Source of the DNA: Aminobacter sp. HY435
GTDB taxonomy: Bacteria; Pseudomonadota; Alphaproteobacteria; Rhizobiales; Rhizobiaceae
Direction of reading: 5' to 3'
Assembly (NCBI RefSeq): GCF_027568395.1
Contig: NZ_JANKZL010000011.1
Location: 1 to 64,000 of the forward strand
Length of the DNA stretch: 64,000 bases
The position numbers and the translations under genes were made by a program. Positions 47,470-57,086 of the stretch are shown piece after piece; position 1 is the first letter of the stretch; every line of letters starts with the position of its first letter. The notes beneath the pieces were generated by a model. It was not told the DNA's origin. It saw nothing but the letters and a program-made list of their open reading frames with translations, and ran no database searches.

Positions 47470-48486
47470 TTACCACCGCCGCTTGACCTCTTCGGCCCAA
47501 CCGAAAATCTTCTCGACCGTGATCCGTCGGCCGTCCTCGCTGACGATCGTGCCGTCGTACCAGCCAAAGACCTGATGTTCCTTCGAGATGACGACGAGGC
47601 GGTCGAAGCACGAATAGCGATCGTGGACAGGGGTGAAGGTCAGGTCGACGCGCTCGCCGCTGATGCGCCACGGTGCCATCCAGTCGTTGCGGTCATAGAT
47701 CCATTCCAGCTCCTGGCTGATCTTCTGGATGCGCCCGTCGATGCGCAGGCAGTTCTCGGTCGAGGGCGTGCCATCGGTCCACTTGGCGCCGAACTGCAAG
47801 CCGATGACCTCGCCATCTGCGGTGCGACCGCTGCCCGCGCCCCAGTTCCAGACGATCGAGTAGGGCCAACGGCCGCGGCCATGGTCGAGCGTGGCGAATG
47901 CCGTATCGGCGGAAAGCTCGTAACGCTTGCCGTCGGCCTTGACCCAGCCGCGCGCCGGAATGCAGTTGTCCTTGAGCGTGTACTGGAACCGCTTGTCGTC
48001 CCACGGAACGACGACGCCCATGGCCTCGTGGCCGGGCTCCCTGACCGCCTCGATTTCAAGGTCGAGACGCGGCGTTGCGGCGCGCAAAAGCGTGCCGTTG
48101 TCGATCTCGAGCATCTCGATCTTCATCGCGTCGCCCTGGCCGACGAGCGAGCCGTCGCCGGATTTCTGCGGCATGGGCGTGACGCGGCCGCGCGGCAGCC
48201 AGTGGATCTCGGCCTGCGAAAAGGTCGCAAGCGTCTTCATGTCGAGGAAGAAGGTCGCAAGCGTCACGCGATAGTCGCTGTGCGAGATGTTGACCGCAAC
48301 CGTGAGGTCCGGCGTGGTGATGCACCAGTATTCGAAACGCTTGTTGCGGCCCCAGCCCTGGAGATTGGCCGTGTGCAGCGCCTTGCGCGTCCAGCCGACG
48401 GCAGCCGGGTTCAGGCGCCCGTTGGGCAAGCACAGGTCCACCGGCTCGGTGATCTCGCGTTCAGTCTTCATTACGCCGCCTACCAT
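47470..48486 (-). CDS. DUF2804 family protein, paralogue A
   Basis: A 338-residue soluble protein of the DUF2804 family, beta-rich and without a signal peptide. Conserved blocks include EPVDLCLPNGRLNPAAVGWTRKALHTANLQGWGRNKRFEYWCI, FATLDHGRGRWPYSIVWNWGAGSG and LEWIYDRNDWMAPWRISGERVDLTFTP. An ATG with GAGGAGG about ten bases upstream is used (overlapping the previous gene by 7 bases); an ATG five codons downstream is possible. It is clearly homologous to the next gene upstream over its full length. The family has no established activity; a lipocalin-like or CrtC-like double barrel that binds or modifies a hydrophobic or glycosidic substrate is conjecture. Confidence 0.88.
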   Translation of the reverse strand: MVGGVMKTEREITEPVDLCLPNGRLNPAAVGWTRKALHTANLQGWGRNKRFEYWCITTPDLTVAVNISHSDYRVTLATFFLDMKTLATFSQAEIHWLPRGRVTPMPQKSGDGSLVGQGDAMKIEMLEIDNGTLLRAATPRLDLEIEAVREPGHEAMGVVVPWDDKRFQYTLKDNCIPARGWVKADGKRYELSADTAFATLDHGRGRWPYSIVWNWGAGSGRTADGEVIGLQFGAKWTDGTPSTENCLRIDGRIQKISQELEWIYDRNDWMAPWRISGERVDLTFTPVHDRYSCFDRLVVISKEHQVFGWYDGTIVSEDGRRITVEKIFGWAEEVKRRW

Positions 48487-49511
48487 TTGCGGTGAACCTC
48501 CTCAGCCAGTCCGAATACACTCCGCACCCGCAACGTCTTTCCCGCGTCGGAAACGATCTCGCCGTCAAAATTGCCGAAGCATTGGTCGCCCCGGGCGCTG
48601 ATGACGTAGCGATTGAAAAAGTGGTGGTGATAGATCGAGGGCGTGAAGGTCAGCTCGACCCTGTCGCCCTGGATGCGCCAGGGCGCCATCCAGTTGGAGC
48701 GGTCGTAGGTCCAGGTCAGTTCCTGGCTGATCTTGTGCAGGCGTCCGTCGATGCGCAGCGCGTTTTCGGTCGAGGGCGTGCCGGCCGTCCACTTGCCGCC
48801 GAACTGCAGGCCGATCTCATGGCCGTCGGTGACGCCGCTGCCGGCCGCCCAGTTCCACCAGGTGCTGTAGGGCCAGCGGCCGCGGCCGTGATCGTGGATG
48901 GCGTAGGCCTCGCCGCGGCGGACGCGGCGCTCGACGCCGTCGACCCAGACCGAACCCTCGACCGGCAGGCAGTTGTTTTTGCGCGTGTACTGGAACAGGC
49001 GCTCGCTCCACGGCACCAGCACGCCCATCGATTCGCGGCCGGGCTCTTCGGTCACCTGCAGGTCGACGTGGACCGATGCGTTGTCGACGCGGATCTGCGT
49101 GCCATTCCGGATGGGCGCAAGGCGCACCGTGATGCCTTCGGCGGAAGCCTCCATTGCAGCCGACGGATCGTGGCCGGAGAGCGTGCCGGCCGGCGGGAAC
49201 CAGCGGTTCTGGCGCTTCGAGATGGTGTGCCCGGACTTCAGGTCGATGAAGGTCGAGGCGACGTTGGCGCGGTAGTCGTGATGCGAGATGTTGGCGGTTA
49301 CGATGAAGTCGCGGGCGACGATGCACCAGTATTCGAAACGCTTGTTGCGGCCCCAGCCCTGAAGGTTGGCGCGATGCAACGGCCTGCGGCTCCAGCCGAC
49401 GGCGGCCGGATTGAGCCGGCCGCTCGGCAGGCAGATGTCCACGGGCGCAGTCAGCTCGCGCTCGAGTCGCGCTGCGGTGGCGCGCGTCGCTGGGTCGATT
49501 ACCTGGTTCAC
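48480..49511 (-). CDS. DUF2804 family protein, paralogue B
   Basis: A 343-residue protein homologous over its whole length to the neighbouring DUF2804 protein: APVDICLPSGRLNPAAVGWSRRPLHRANLQGWGRNKRFEYWCI, YAIHDHGRGRWPYSTWWNWAAGSG and LTWTYDRSNWMAPWRIQGDRVELTFTP. It has a 15-residue longer N-terminus (MNQVIDPATRATAAR). It overlaps the GntR gene stop region by four bases (ATGA). Two diverged copies in a row within a transporter operon suggest a heterodimer or two related reactions on the imported compound. The function is unknown. Confidence 0.88.
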   Translation of the reverse strand: MNQVIDPATRATAARLERELTAPVDICLPSGRLNPAAVGWSRRPLHRANLQGWGRNKRFEYWCIVARDFIVTANISHHDYRANVASTFIDLKSGHTISKRQNRWFPPAGTLSGHDPSAAMEASAEGITVRLAPIRNGTQIRVDNASVHVDLQVTEEPGRESMGVLVPWSERLFQYTRKNNCLPVEGSVWVDGVERRVRRGEAYAIHDHGRGRWPYSTWWNWAAGSGVTDGHEIGLQFGGKWTAGTPSTENALRIDGRLHKISQELTWTYDRSNWMAPWRIQGDRVELTFTPSIYHHHFFNRYVISARGDQCFGNFDGEIVSDAGKTLRVRSVFGLAEEVHRKW

Positions 49512-53813: not shown

Positions 53814-53834
53814 TTTGGTATACAGTATTCCAAA
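53814..53834. promoter_or_regulatory. 21-bp palindrome upstream of the diiron-protein operon
   Basis: TTTGGTATAC and GTATTCCAAA flank a single central A; nine of ten position pairs match. It lies about 32 bases before the start codon at 53866 and resembles TGGTATACCA-type operators of GntR/FCD regulators. The second GntR regulator, last gene of this operon, is the likely ligand-dependent repressor. Confidence 0.6.
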
Positions 53835-53865
53835 TCAATCTTTCGACTTTGCCAGGGAGCAGTGA

Positions 53866-54594
53866 ATGACCGTTGCAATGAATCCGGACGAGTTCCGCAC
53901 GGCGCTGGAAAACGCCATCAAGGGCAAGAGCGCCAACAAGTCGCCCTTCAGCGTCGGCTGGGCGAGCGGCAAGCTCAGCCGCGAGCACCTCGCCCGCTGG
54001 GCCGAGAACCACTACCACTATGTCGGGCCGTTCGCTGACTATCTCGGCTACATCTATGCCCGCATGCCGGAGGGCTATACCGAGGCCAAGGATTTCCTGC
54101 TCGCCAACATGTATGAGGAAGAGATCGGCGGCGACCGCCATACCGACCTGCTGATCCGTTTCGGCGAAGCCTGCGGCACGACGGGCGACAGGATGCGCGA
54201 CTCCGACAACATGTCGCCGACGACACGCGCCCTGCAGAGCTGGTGCTATGCGGTTGCCATGCGCGAGGACCCGATCGTCGCCGTTGCCGGCCTCGTCGTC
54301 GGCCTCGAATCGCAGGTGCCGTCGATCTACCGCAAGCAGACGCCGACCCTGCGCGACAAGTATGGCTTCACCGACGAGGAGGTCGAGTTCTTCGACCTCC
54401 ACATCGTTTCCGACGAGATCCATGGCGAGCGCGGCTACCAGATCGTGCTCGAGCACGCACGCACCGTCGAGATGCAGCAGCGCTGCCTCAAGATCTGCGA
54501 AGTCGGCGCCCAGATGCGCCTGCTCTACACCACCGCACTCTACAACGACTATGTCGCCGCAGAGTTGCCGCTCGAGGAACTCCTCGCCGCCTGA
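53866..54594 (+). CDS. haem-oxygenase-like diiron protein (PqqC/TenA/CADD superfamily)
   Basis: A 242-residue all-helical cytosolic protein. The opening SPFSVGWASGKLSREHLARWAENHYHYVGPFADYLGYIYAR (about 26-66) is the superfamily N-terminal helix pair. All six metal ligands of the CADD-type diiron site can be placed: E85 and H92 (EEIGGDRH), E148 (GLESQVP), H179, D183 and H186 (HIVSDEIH). It should therefore be an oxygen-activating enzyme rather than the metal-free PqqC or the thiaminase TenA. The substrate is unknown. It is the first gene of an operon with a GlcG-like protein, a flavin/iron-sulfur reductase and a GntR regulator; the reductase could supply its electrons (inference). Confidence 0.88.
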   Translation: MTVAMNPDEFRTALENAIKGKSANKSPFSVGWASGKLSREHLARWAENHYHYVGPFADYLGYIYARMPEGYTEAKDFLLANMYEEEIGGDRHTDLLIRFGEACGTTGDRMRDSDNMSPTTRALQSWCYAVAMREDPIVAVAGLVVGLESQVPSIYRKQTPTLRDKYGFTDEEVEFFDLHIVSDEIHGERGYQIVLEHARTVEMQQRCLKICEVGAQMRLLYTTALYNDYVAAELPLEELLAA

Positions 54595-54699
54595 GCCAAC
54601 ACTCTTGGCGCGGGGGGAAGCGCGCGGACCGGTGGAGGGGCCGGTCAGCGCGTTCCCCTCGAAAACAGCAAAGACATGACATAACAAGGGCGCGTAACA

Positions 54700-55179
54700 G
54701 TGAAACAGGTTCTCAAACTCGAAATCGAAGAAGCTCGCGTCATGGCGGCGGCGGCTGTCGCCAAGGCCCTGGAACTCAATGTTCCCGAAACGGTGTGCAT
54801 CGCCGATGACGGCGGCTATCCGATCGTCCTCGAGCGGATGAACGGCGCTCGCGTGACCGGGCCTCAGATCGCCTGGAACAAGGCATTTACCGCCGCGGGC
54901 CACAAGCGTTCGACGCACCTCTTCACCACGCCGCCAAACGGCCCGGCCCTGCCCGGCAACGAAGCCTTCGGCATCCAGCTCAGCTTCGAGGGCCGCTTCG
55001 CCGCGTTTGTCGGTGGTTTTCCTGTCGTCGTCGACGGTGAGGTAATAGGCGGTGTGGGCCTTAGCGGGGGCAATGGCGAGCAGGACATTGCCTGCGGTGT
55101 GGCGGCACTCGGCGCGCTGCAGGCGTTGCTGGAACCAAAGGGCCACAAGGTCATGGTGCAGGCCGACATCAAGAAATGA
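54700..55179 (+). CDS. GlcG/HbpS family haem-binding-like protein
   Basis: A 159-residue protein starting at a GTG with AAGGG upstream. Family traits are LEIEEARVMAAAAVAKALELNV at the start, the glycine-rich VVVDGEVIGGVGLSGGNGEQDIACGVAAL near the end, and the central AWNKAFTAAGHKRST. HbpS binds haem and cobalamin in Streptomyces; GlcG is linked to glycolate use; many homologues sit next to oxidoreductases with no known role. There is no signal peptide. It lies about 100 bases after the diiron gene and 50 bases before the reductase gene, so it belongs to the same transcript. Confidence 0.88.
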   Translation: MKQVLKLEIEEARVMAAAAVAKALELNVPETVCIADDGGYPIVLERMNGARVTGPQIAWNKAFTAAGHKRSTHLFTTPPNGPALPGNEAFGIQLSFEGRFAAFVGGFPVVVDGEVIGGVGLSGGNGEQDIACGVAALGALQALLEPKGHKVMVQADIKK

Positions 55180-55228
55180 CAGGCGGCCGCGACACGCGGC
55201 CCGACCCCCTGCTTCAGTGGAGACATGG

Positions 55229-56239
55229 ATGAGCCATGTTGTGCGCGTTCTCGAAACCGAGGACCAATTCACCGTGGATTCGGAAGAATCCGTCCTGACA
55301 GCCGCCTTGCGCCAGGGCATTGCGCTGCGGCACGACTGCACGGAGGGCGGATGCGGAACATGCCGCGTACGGTTGACGGAAGGCTGCGTGCGCTACGAGG
55401 AATACCCCCTGGCGCTGACGCCGGAAGACGAGGAACTGGGTTTCGCCCTCGCCTGCCAGGCGCGCCCGGAAAGCGACCTTGTGATCAGCACCGAGCGACC
55501 GGTAGAGCCCTGCTCCGATCCCGAACGCCATGCTGCCGTGGTGGAGTCGGTACGCCATCTTGGCCGCGACGTGGTGCATCTGACATTGGCGCTGCCCGGG
55601 GCCGAGGACCTCGTCTACAGGCCGGGCCAATATCTCAACGTGCTGCTGGGCGATGGCAACAAGCGAAGCTTTTCCATGGCTTCGGTGCAAAACGGCAGGA
55701 CTGTCGACCTCCACATACGTCGTGTCCGCGACGGCCATTTCACCGGAGGCCAACTGATGCGACTGAGCCCCGGAGACCGGGTCGACGTTGAACTGCCGCA
55801 TGGCCTGTTCTGTTGCCGCAAGGAAGATTTTCGGCCCTTGGTGATGGTGGCGACGGGCACCGGGCTGGCGCCGATCAAAAGCATCCTGGAATCCCTGATG
55901 GACGATCCTGATTGTCCGCCCGTATCGCTCTACTGGGGCATGCGCACCGAGGAAGACCTGTATCTGCACGATGAAATCCTGTCGTGGACCGACCGGCTGT
56001 GCGACTTCCAGTATGTGCCCGTGCTGTCGCGCCCCGGTTCGTCCTGGACCGGGCGCCAAGGCTATGTGCAGGACGCCGCCCTGGAAGACCTTGGCGATTT
56101 CTCCGAGCACGCCATCTACATGTGCGGCTCGCCCAGCATGATTTCGAGCGCGAAAAAGCTCTTCATCGAAAACGGGGCAAACCCCGGCTTCATCTATTCC
56201 GACGCCTTCAACTTCCAGCACACCCTGGCGCCGGCATGA
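55229..56239 (+). CDS. 2Fe-2S ferredoxin / FAD / NAD(P)H oxidoreductase (oxygenase reductase component)
   Basis: A 336-residue electron-transfer protein. An N-terminal plant-type ferredoxin domain has ligands C37, C42, C45 and C76 (CTEGGCGTCRVRL, ALACQA). An FNR-type flavin domain has RSFSMAS (146-152), and an NAD(P) domain has ATGTGLAPIKSIL (208-220) and MCGSPSM (298-304). This order is that of reductases for soluble diiron or Rieske oxygenases (phenol hydroxylase, toluene monooxygenase type) and of the glucoseen reductase AscD. The start is an ATG with GGAG about ten bases upstream. It probably passes electrons from NAD(P)H to the diiron protein of the same operon. Confidence 0.93.
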   Translation: MSHVVRVLETEDQFTVDSEESVLTAALRQGIALRHDCTEGGCGTCRVRLTEGCVRYEEYPLALTPEDEELGFALACQARPESDLVISTERPVEPCSDPERHAAVVESVRHLGRDVVHLTLALPGAEDLVYRPGQYLNVLLGDGNKRSFSMASVQNGRTVDLHIRRVRDGHFTGGQLMRLSPGDRVDVELPHGLFCCRKEDFRPLVMVATGTGLAPIKSILESLMDDPDCPPVSLYWGMRTEEDLYLHDEILSWTDRLCDFQYVPVLSRPGSSWTGRQGYVQDAALEDLGDFSEHAIYMCGSPSMISSAKKLFIENGANPGFIYSDAFNFQHTLAPA

Positions 56240-56344
56240 CATCCCCGCCGGGCCTTGTTGTCAGGCCGGTATCGAAACGCGACCCTGGAGGGCAGTCGGG
56301 ACCTTGGCCCACGGCGCGACGGCGGATGGCGGTGATCGCAGCGC

Positions 56345-56363
56345 GGATTGAATATTGTAATCC
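56345..56363. promoter_or_regulatory. inverted repeat upstream of the second GntR gene
   Basis: GGATT-9-AATCC lies about 80 bases before the GntR start, in an AT-rich patch. Its right half GTAATCCAAA (56357-56366) matches the half-site GTATTCCAAA of the palindrome at 53814-53834 except at one position, so the same regulator may bind both. Confidence 0.4.
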
Positions 56364-56444
56364 AAACCGCGGAGGCTATATCATTTGCAATCAGGAGTCG
56401 CTTCCGTCGGCTGATTCGCCCTCTACTCCCAGGAAGTGCAGGAC

Positions 56445-57086
56445 ATGACCGTCATACTTGGAGAAATCCACGCTCCGCTTACCAAGCTGATAACCGCCGC
56501 GTTGCGCGAGCGTATCGTCAGTGGTGAGATCGGCGTCGGCGAACGGCTGGTCGAAGGACGGCTCTCGGAAGAAATGGGCGTGTCGCGCATGCCGGTTCGC
56601 GAGGCGCTGCGCGAACTCGCCGCCGAGGGCATCGTCACCATCGAGCCGCGCCGTGGCGCATCGGTCACGATCTTCACCGAAGAGCAAAAGCGCGAGCTGG
56701 TCGAAGTGCGCGCGACGCTGGAGGCGCTGAACGCCAAGCTTGCCGCCAAGCGCCACGATCCAGAGCAGATAGCTGCCCTTCAGAAGATCCTCGACGACGG
56801 CGCAAAGCTGGCCGACACCGACGACCCGGTTCTGCTGTCCCGGCAGAACACCGAATTCCACGAGGCCCTTGCAACCGTTGCCGCCAATTCTGTGCTGCAG
56901 GACATGGTGCGTTCGCTGCGCGACCGCACGGTGATGCTGTTTGCTCCGATCAGCCGGCGGCGCGGCCGCCAGAACTGGGAAGAGCACGCCAATATCCTGC
57001 GCGCGGTGATTGCCGGCGACAGCGAACTGGCAGCCCTCCTCGCGGCACGCCATGTCTACAACGCGGCCGAGATCCCGCAGGACTAG
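56445..57086 (+). CDS. GntR family regulator (FadR/FCD type) of the diiron operon
   Basis: A 213-residue regulator with a winged helix at about 10-75 (PLTKLITAALRERIVSGEIGVGERLVEGRLSEEMGVSRMPVREALRELAAEGIVTIEPRRGASV) and a short FCD domain (SRQNTEFHEALATVAANSVLQDM, EEHANILRAVIAGDSELAALLAARHV). The ATG at 56445 has AGGAAG eight bases upstream; a GTG three codons earlier lacks spacing. The stop codon TAG is formed by the first bases of the dispersed repeat at 57083, so the last codons of this gene adjoin that repeat. It is likely a repressor of the operon it ends. Confidence 0.92.
   Translation: MTVILGEIHAPLTKLITAALRERIVSGEIGVGERLVEGRLSEEMGVSRMPVREALRELAAEGIVTIEPRRGASVTIFTEEQKRELVEVRATLEALNAKLAAKRHDPEQIAALQKILDDGAKLADTDDPVLLSRQNTEFHEALATVAANSVLQDMVRSLRDRTVMLFAPISRRRGRQNWEEHANILRAVIAGDSELAALLAARHVYNAAEIPQD

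Follow-up and report, generated by a model that had tools for sequence, protein, structure and literature searches.

The window analysed here, the first 64,000 nucleotides of contig NZ_JANKZL010000011.1 of Aminobacter sp. HY435, carries four intact genes between positions 53814 and 57086, all on the + strand and co-directional as judged from open reading frames (ORFs) and Pfam: a haem-oxygenase-like dimetal oxygenase (DI), a GlcG/HbpS/DUF336 protein (GlcG), a reductase (RED) and a GntR/FCD regulator (GntR). They are half of a larger oxygenase system, which many soil bacteria carry. The reading that we hold to be the likelier one is a GntR-linked, probably catabolic regulon centred on a multicomponent haem-oxygenase-like dimetal oxygenase with an inferred aldehyde pathway. 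An earlier sequence-only reading of the four genes had seen an undescribed-looking oxidation operon around the dimetal enzyme. This view is supported; the multicomponent system is real, coherent and apparently undescribed, and no description of it was found in the open-access literature searched for it. The features of the locus are as follows.

53814–53834, + strand: 21-bp operator TTTGGTATACAGTATTCCAAA upstream of DI, with a 13-bp core unique in the window
53866–54594, + strand: DI copy 1, haem-oxygenase-like dimetal oxygenase, 242 residues (Pfam Haem_oxygenas_2, 126 bits)
54700–55179, + strand: GlcG/HbpS/DUF336 protein (Pfam HbpS-like PF03928, 112 bits, cut-off 25)
55229–56239, + strand: RED, [2Fe-2S]/FAD/NAD(P)H oxygenase reductase (Pfam Fer2, FAD_binding_6 and NAD_binding_1, in that order)
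56346–56366, - strand: weaker operator-like site before the GntR gene (15/21 positions)
56445–57086, + strand: GntR/FCD regulator (Pfam GntR and FCD)

These Pfam matches agree with the earlier naming of the second gene as a GlcG/HbpS protein, the third as having the domain order of oxygenase reductases and the last as a GntR regulator. DI, GlcG and RED likely share a single transcript, because the gaps along the four genes are 105, 49 and 205 bp in order. For GntR, comparison with a Kaistia homologue makes the ATG at 56445 a more likely start than the GTG at 56436.

The dimetal enzyme and its constant partners

In Pfam, DI matches solely Haem_oxygenas_2 and TENA_THI-4; it has no match there to the ferritin-like diiron family, the hydroxylase fold of bacterial multicomponent monooxygenases. 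Residues E85, H92, E148, H179, D183, and H186 of DI align with E81, H88, E142, H174, D178, and H181 of CADD (CADD positions counted along the alignment). This three-histidine/three-carboxylate set is invariant in 84/84 DI sequences, the window copy included, and the six CADD-type ligands named in the sequence-only reading thus hold in the homologues on whose agreement it had staked its claim. The 84 sequences, 76 of them distinct, comprise the window copy, a second copy from the same genome (L094), three plasmid records and 79 ORFs from 76 loci; a contig-end fragment (L040) was left out. The AlphaFold2 model of DI (predicted local distance difference test, pLDDT, 78) matches PqqC, CADD, UndA, and HrmI in fold. 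PqqC is the top match, with a template-modelling (TM) score of 0.82 by query length; CADD reaches 0.84 by target length. The predicted fold and the ligand set together place DI in the superfamily of haem-oxygenase-like dimetal oxidases/oxygenases (HDOs), and binding of two metals and activation of O2 are its predicted functions.

The second DI copy lies outside the window, 53 kb further downstream (contig position 107508). It is followed on its 3' side by two [2Fe-2S] ferredoxins (Fd1 and Fd2) with SM, an orphan protein of about 100 residues, between them, and then by an aldehyde dehydrogenase (ALDH), a TauE-family permease (TauE) and an OCD-family, imine-reductase-like gene; a gamma-glutamyltransferase-family (GGT) gene diverges from this cluster. 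The two copies are 8–10 kb apart in Aminobacter anthyllidis, A. carboxidus, and A. ciceronei, where a carboxylesterase-family gene, absent in the window, stands between RED and GntR. The annotation of a Caballeronia plasmid lists the same set: GntR, a hydrolase, two 2Fe-2S proteins flanking a hypothetical protein, a redox enzyme, an aldehyde dehydrogenase, a heme-binding protein, a 2Fe-2S reductase, an ornithine cyclodeaminase family member and a major facilitator superfamily (MFS) transporter. SM has no Pfam or NCBIfam match, a search of PDB sequences gave one insignificant hit (E 0.65), and a fold search gave no clear match. The nearest models of ALDH are those of 2-oxoglutarate-semialdehyde dehydrogenase, at a score below the cut-off.

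A scan of genome contigs matched 507 stretches, 491 of them DI relatives, and the best 80 resolved into 76 loci with DI at 85–99% identity. They come from Aminobacter, the closest, and from Kaistia, Bradyrhizobium, Achromobacter, Cupriavidus, Variovorax, Acetobacteraceae, and others. The 62 loci that span 18.9 kb or more are called long loci below; three are from Aminobacter. A component was counted as present when tblastn matched at least half of the query. Among all 76 loci (and among the 62 long ones) this gave Fd1 in 75 (62), SM in 74 (62), Fd2 in 74 (62), GlcG in 71 (61), GntR in 67 (57), ALDH in 60 (55), a permease family (PERM) in 58 (48), RED in 42 (38), TauE in 42 (38), OCD in 17 (17), GGT in 7 (7) and an alpha/beta hydrolase in 2 (1). 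The ALDH count of 55 pools 47 loci matching at 60% or more with 8 at 40–60%, and GntR is so large a family that a match per locus does not imply orthology. Nine gene families occur in 18 different orders among the DI loci. The core of the proposed four-gene operon therefore stands, including the co-occurrence of DI with reductase and GlcG genes, but the operon is not complete as first drawn: Fd1, SM, and Fd2, constant in the long loci, lie outside the window. A 510-residue membrane protein (L060, 13567–15099, and homologues) is linked to the system in 48/62 long loci; it has no match in Pfam, NCBIfam or PDB, and its 537-residue Caballeronia homologue has none in Pfam or NCBIfam.

In wider searches, DI was found in 7 of 61 genomes, all within the 10 of the window's genus and with two matches each; in one of the seven, 81% complete, contig ends cut both matches. 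SM was present in 4 of 397 genomes sampled from the phylum, and close DI in the same 4, the window's genome included; one further genome of the sample holds a distant DI only (E 1e-60), without SM. In 289 genomes of the class, close DI and SM occur together in the window's genome alone.

Sequence identity between lineages differs strongly by component. In comparisons among Aminobacter, Bradyrhizobium, Achromobacter, and an acetobacterium, identity is 86–90% for DI, 74–81% for GlcG, 66–77% for Fd2, 56–68% for Fd1 and 46–53% for SM; RED, compared for the Aminobacter–Achromobacter pair only, is 55% identical. Over seven lineage pairs, DI keeps its 86–90% and SM spans 46–55%. By these values DI is the most constrained component. 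Fourfold sites agree at 35–70% over all components and at 45–68% for DI, as raw values with no baseline for unrelated sequences. Because the proteins are conserved yet their fourfold sites agree only to this extent, a recent transfer of the whole cluster between these lineages seems unlikely.

By its domain order RED is assignable to the oxygenase reductases of BenC/MmoC type. BenC (193 bits) and MmoC (181 bits) are its nearest named models, both under cut-off, and the reductases of benzoate dioxygenase, toluene-4-monooxygenase, and P450 systems are among its solved matches. Within the genus, RED occurs in 6/10 genomes, namely all six near-complete genomes with DI, and in 0/3 without DI; in the seventh genome with DI, the one 81% complete, no RED was seen.

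A shared operator and the predicted regulon

The 21-bp site at 53814–53834 forms the exact left edge of the four-gene stretch, and it recurs before DI copy 2 with one difference. With up to two mismatches allowed on both strands, the 13-bp core gave this one site in the window, where 0.11 were expected. In the whole genome of the strain, a 19-bp pattern returned two sites with no mismatch and two with two mismatches, and its reversed control returned one match at up to three mismatches. We then scored the 250 bp 5' of each gene for at least 15/21 operator positions. Such a site precedes 30/84 DI and 28/60 PERM genes, compared with 0.56% of 1600 random 250-bp stretches, although divergent DI–PERM pairs may score one site twice. 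The other families gave GntR 7/76, ALDH 6/65, TauE 6/43, Fd1 2/79, GGT 2/8 and GlcG 0/75. In Variovorax, an NMT1-type ATP-binding cassette (ABC) transporter probably has the core in front of it.

The exact 13-bp core was sought in 16 genomes and found in 12, with no match for the reversed control. Coordinate mapping resolved 29 distinct sites, of which 24 belong to DI clusters and 3 precede DapB-like genes. The DapB-like gene is present in 6/9 genomes of the genus, exactly those with DI (the genome 81% complete left out), and the core lies just 5' of its start in 6/6. Among ten genomes outside the genus, one (Cupriavidus) holds a 46% relative, at which the core was not found. The DapB-like protein scores 165 bits in the DapB model, above the cut-off of 122, and reads YASARKPDAPSGT where the best solved match reads LHHNQKADAPSGT; a lysine is kept, and two histidines, which we take to be catalytic in DapB, are replaced. 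The operator common to DI copy 1, DI copy 2, and the DapB-like gene defines a single predicted regulon. GntR is its probable repressor, and its binding to the operator is inferred from the joint conservation of the two in the clusters.

The remaining 2 of the 29 exact sites lie between a catalase-peroxidase (katG-like) and an OxyR-like gene, both named by eye, in two species of the window's genus (L150, near 6834; L151, near 6712). These copies would link the catalase to the regulon; the search of the window's own genome with the 19-bp pattern listed no such site. One of the two-mismatch copies in that genome (L115, 6971–6989; C1:90970) coincides with the start of an SBF-like transporter gene that diverges from a LysR-like gene and is adjoined by an FAD monooxygenase.

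Proposed function and alternative explanations

In the proposed mechanism, electrons would pass from NADH through the FAD and [2Fe-2S] centre of RED to one or both ferredoxins and on to the dimetal site of DI. That site would activate O2 and use it to oxidise a small carboxylate or amine, probably one that contains nitrogen, at a position next to the nitrogen. This would yield an aldehyde or amino-aldehyde, which ALDH would oxidise in turn, and the OCD- and DapB-type reductases would handle a cyclic imine form. GlcG may bind or sense the reactive aldehyde, and SM may be a coupling or effector protein, possibly with a gating role. GntR would be released from DNA by the substrate or an intermediate, and the system is probably substrate-inducible. 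Domain content and constant linkage are the grounds on which this electron path and the part played by SM are proposed.

The solved matches of GlcG are, in order, 2a2l (of unknown function), the C-terminal domain of PduO, NahX, EfgA, and a putative extracellular heme-binding protein. According to the excerpted text of PMC8153426, EfgA senses formaldehyde at a site with K57, S114, and D121, haem and cobalamin are the ligands of PduO and HbpS, and functions differ among DUF336 members. GlcG is homologous to both EfgA and the PduO domain and keeps the three formaldehyde-contact residues as K61, S122, and D129, invariant in 75/75 sequences (EfgA numbers matched on the assumption of a 20-residue tag in the PDB chain). 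The match is only permissive, because the three residues are described as largely conserved across DUF336 (same excerpts). A role of GlcG in aldehyde handling fits the linked ALDH. The haem-protein helper of the sequence-only reading was an over-reading, although GlcG may yet have a haem role.

The neighbours of DI vary by lineage and include hydrolases (an amidase, isochorismatase-family and gamma-glutamyltransferase-family proteins, esterases) and, in one locus, a DAO-type oxidase. Together with the NMT1-type transporter and the two imine-reductase families, they suggest that an amine or amide, freed by different hydrolases, is oxidised to an aldehyde. Whether the substrate is nitrogenous is close to an even question in our judgement, leaning slightly to the negative.

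Several observations weigh against the catabolic, reductase-coupled reading. RED stands beside DI in 38/62 long loci, as the claim of reductase coupling had it, but it is not constant: it is absent near DI in 24/62. Among the 23 genomes searched for these 24 loci, a close RED (57%) was found in 1, only 28–41% matches in 10, and no match at E 1e-20 in 12. The electron source thus varies; a different reductase must serve in most members from Bradyrhizobium and Acetobacteraceae, and Fd1, Fd2, and SM emerge as the fixed partners of DI. SM itself shows no recognisable relation to known effectors in sequence and fold searches. The structure prediction proposed as a check of the metal pocket returned the haem-oxygenase fold, but the model is weak round the metal site (block pLDDT 53 at residues 81–90 and 54–66 at 151–180). 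On the regulatory side, 54/84 DI upstream regions fall short of 15/21 operator positions, and 4/16 genomes lack the exact core. The long loci are not independent, 21 sharing one Achromobacter-type order; a further 13 loci have one Bradyrhizobium-type order. In the class sample, nine other genomes hold distant DI without SM, and a 43% DI relative in another genome of the class (L095, 7929–10590) adjoins GlcG (54%), GntR (56%), and a Rieske-domain protein without Fd1, SM or Fd2. Because this relative groups DI, GlcG, and GntR without ferredoxins or SM, these three may be the older core of the system. The nitrogenous substrate is argued from lineage-variable neighbours (OCD 17/62, GGT 7/62), and no biochemistry on this system was found in the literature.

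Other functions were weighed against the same evidence. CADD-family chains are the best solved sequence matches of DI (E 1.7e-16), and the p-aminobenzoate synthases CADD and NePabS share its six-ligand set, which would suit a self-sacrificing synthase of CADD type. The residues that CADD sacrifices, Tyr27 and Lys152 (PMC11965152, in the part consulted), are replaced by Ser29 and Gln158 in 84/84 DI sequences; DI scores 92 bits against the cut-off of 200 in the CADD model NCBIfam TIGR04305, and no folate gene is among the identified cluster genes. DI further differs from these synthases in its redox partners and catabolic-looking neighbours. This candidate was rejected at residue level and carries practically no weight. 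With the sacrificial pair replaced, DI has the ligand set of CADD but not its chemistry. It is very improbable that the system serves a cofactor, by handling haem with the HbpS-like protein or by a pyrroloquinoline quinone (PQQ)-type oxidation, even though Pfam names the second protein haem-degrading HbpS-like, the haem/cobalamin binder PduO-C outscores EfgA among its solved relatives, and PqqC leads the fold matches of DI. In the PqqC model NCBIfam TIGR02111, DI scores 45 bits against a cut-off of 240, the identified cluster genes include no haem or PQQ gene, and the permeases, ALDH, and narrow regulon indicate catabolism.

Two alternatives keep the electron chain or the reductase. DI could be a dimetal desaturase or N-oxygenase fed by the same chain, with the imine reductases recycling an imine product. 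Such enzymes exist among HDOs (PMC13108848, consulted in part), and some of the lineages have OCD-like and DapB-like genes that are either linked to the system or under its regulation. ALDH in 55/62 long loci suits an aldehyde product better, and sequence cannot separate the reactions; we consider this explanation unlikely. A biosynthetic system of the MboAB kind, in which DI and RED would modify an amino acid or peptide toward a natural product, is likewise improbable. In MboA/MboB, the mangotoxin acetylenase and its reductase, a haem-oxygenase-like dimetal enzyme works with an NAD(P)H/flavin/Fe2S2 reductase dedicated to it, and the authors called the two possibly the first characterised dedicated HDO–redox partner pair (excerpts of PMC13185094). 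Reductase coupling in the superfamily thus has a precedent, and the present system is not the first reductase-coupled HDO because MboAB was already published in 2026. Characterised HDOs, moreover, predominantly use amino or fatty acids as substrates (PMC13108848, same part). MboA/MboB differ from the present system in being biosynthetic and acting on a peptide, and the portion of PMC13185094 consulted describes no separate ferredoxins and no SM-like or GlcG-like partner. No ligase or peptide-synthesis family is among the identified cluster genes (part of the neighbours were annotated), and the recurring permeases, ALDH, hydrolases, and local GntR gene appear catabolic.

Relation to multicomponent monooxygenases and further loci

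Soluble methane and toluene monooxygenases consist of a diiron oxygenase, a Fer2-FAD-NAD reductase, and a small partner protein, and in methane monooxygenase MmoB gates O2 activation. The DI system shares the outline of these bacterial multicomponent monooxygenases. It differs in its extra ferredoxins and in that their hydroxylase belongs to another fold family. SM gave no match to an effector family (MmoB/DmpM) in the libraries searched. In the catabolic reading at its fullest, DI would be the first HDO working as a true multicomponent catabolic monooxygenase, with RED, two ferredoxins, SM as an effector of a new family gating O2, and the DUF336 protein handling the aldehyde; we regard this as possible but rather doubtful. 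A 2026 review counts about a dozen characterised HDOs, largely from natural product biosynthesis, and states that those studied need no protein effector (PMC13108848, as far as the consulted text goes).

If the catabolic reading is true, an HDO that has ferredoxins of its own and a small partner conserved throughout, and that is spread over alpha- and betaproteobacteria, would suggest that this scaffold acquired the multicomponent layout of ferritin-like monooxygenases independently, and would offer a testable model of O2 gating in HDOs. It would also point to a degradation pathway, apparently undescribed, that operates in Achromobacter, Bradyrhizobium, Cupriavidus, Variovorax, and others, and DUF336 proteins, whose presence in catabolic operons has long been enigmatic, would gain a specific partner.

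Further neighbourhoods were noted in the course of the analysis. Distant DI relatives (33–35%; L096 and L097) lie beside isochorismatase-family genes, a UbiD-family decarboxylase, and Asp/Glu racemase-like genes (the racemase named by eye), which suggests a second uncharacterised catabolic HDO pathway. In five Acetobacteraceae loci (L028, L056, L058, L073, and L076) the neighbours of the cluster include a fused molybdenum hydroxylase and a conserved, presumably 6-hydroxynicotinate-reductase-like protein, which no NCBIfam model matched. In the window itself, at 47470–49511 on the - strand, a tandem pair of DUF2804 genes adjoins a GntR/FCD regulator and genes that resemble, by eye, a sugar-type ABC transporter.

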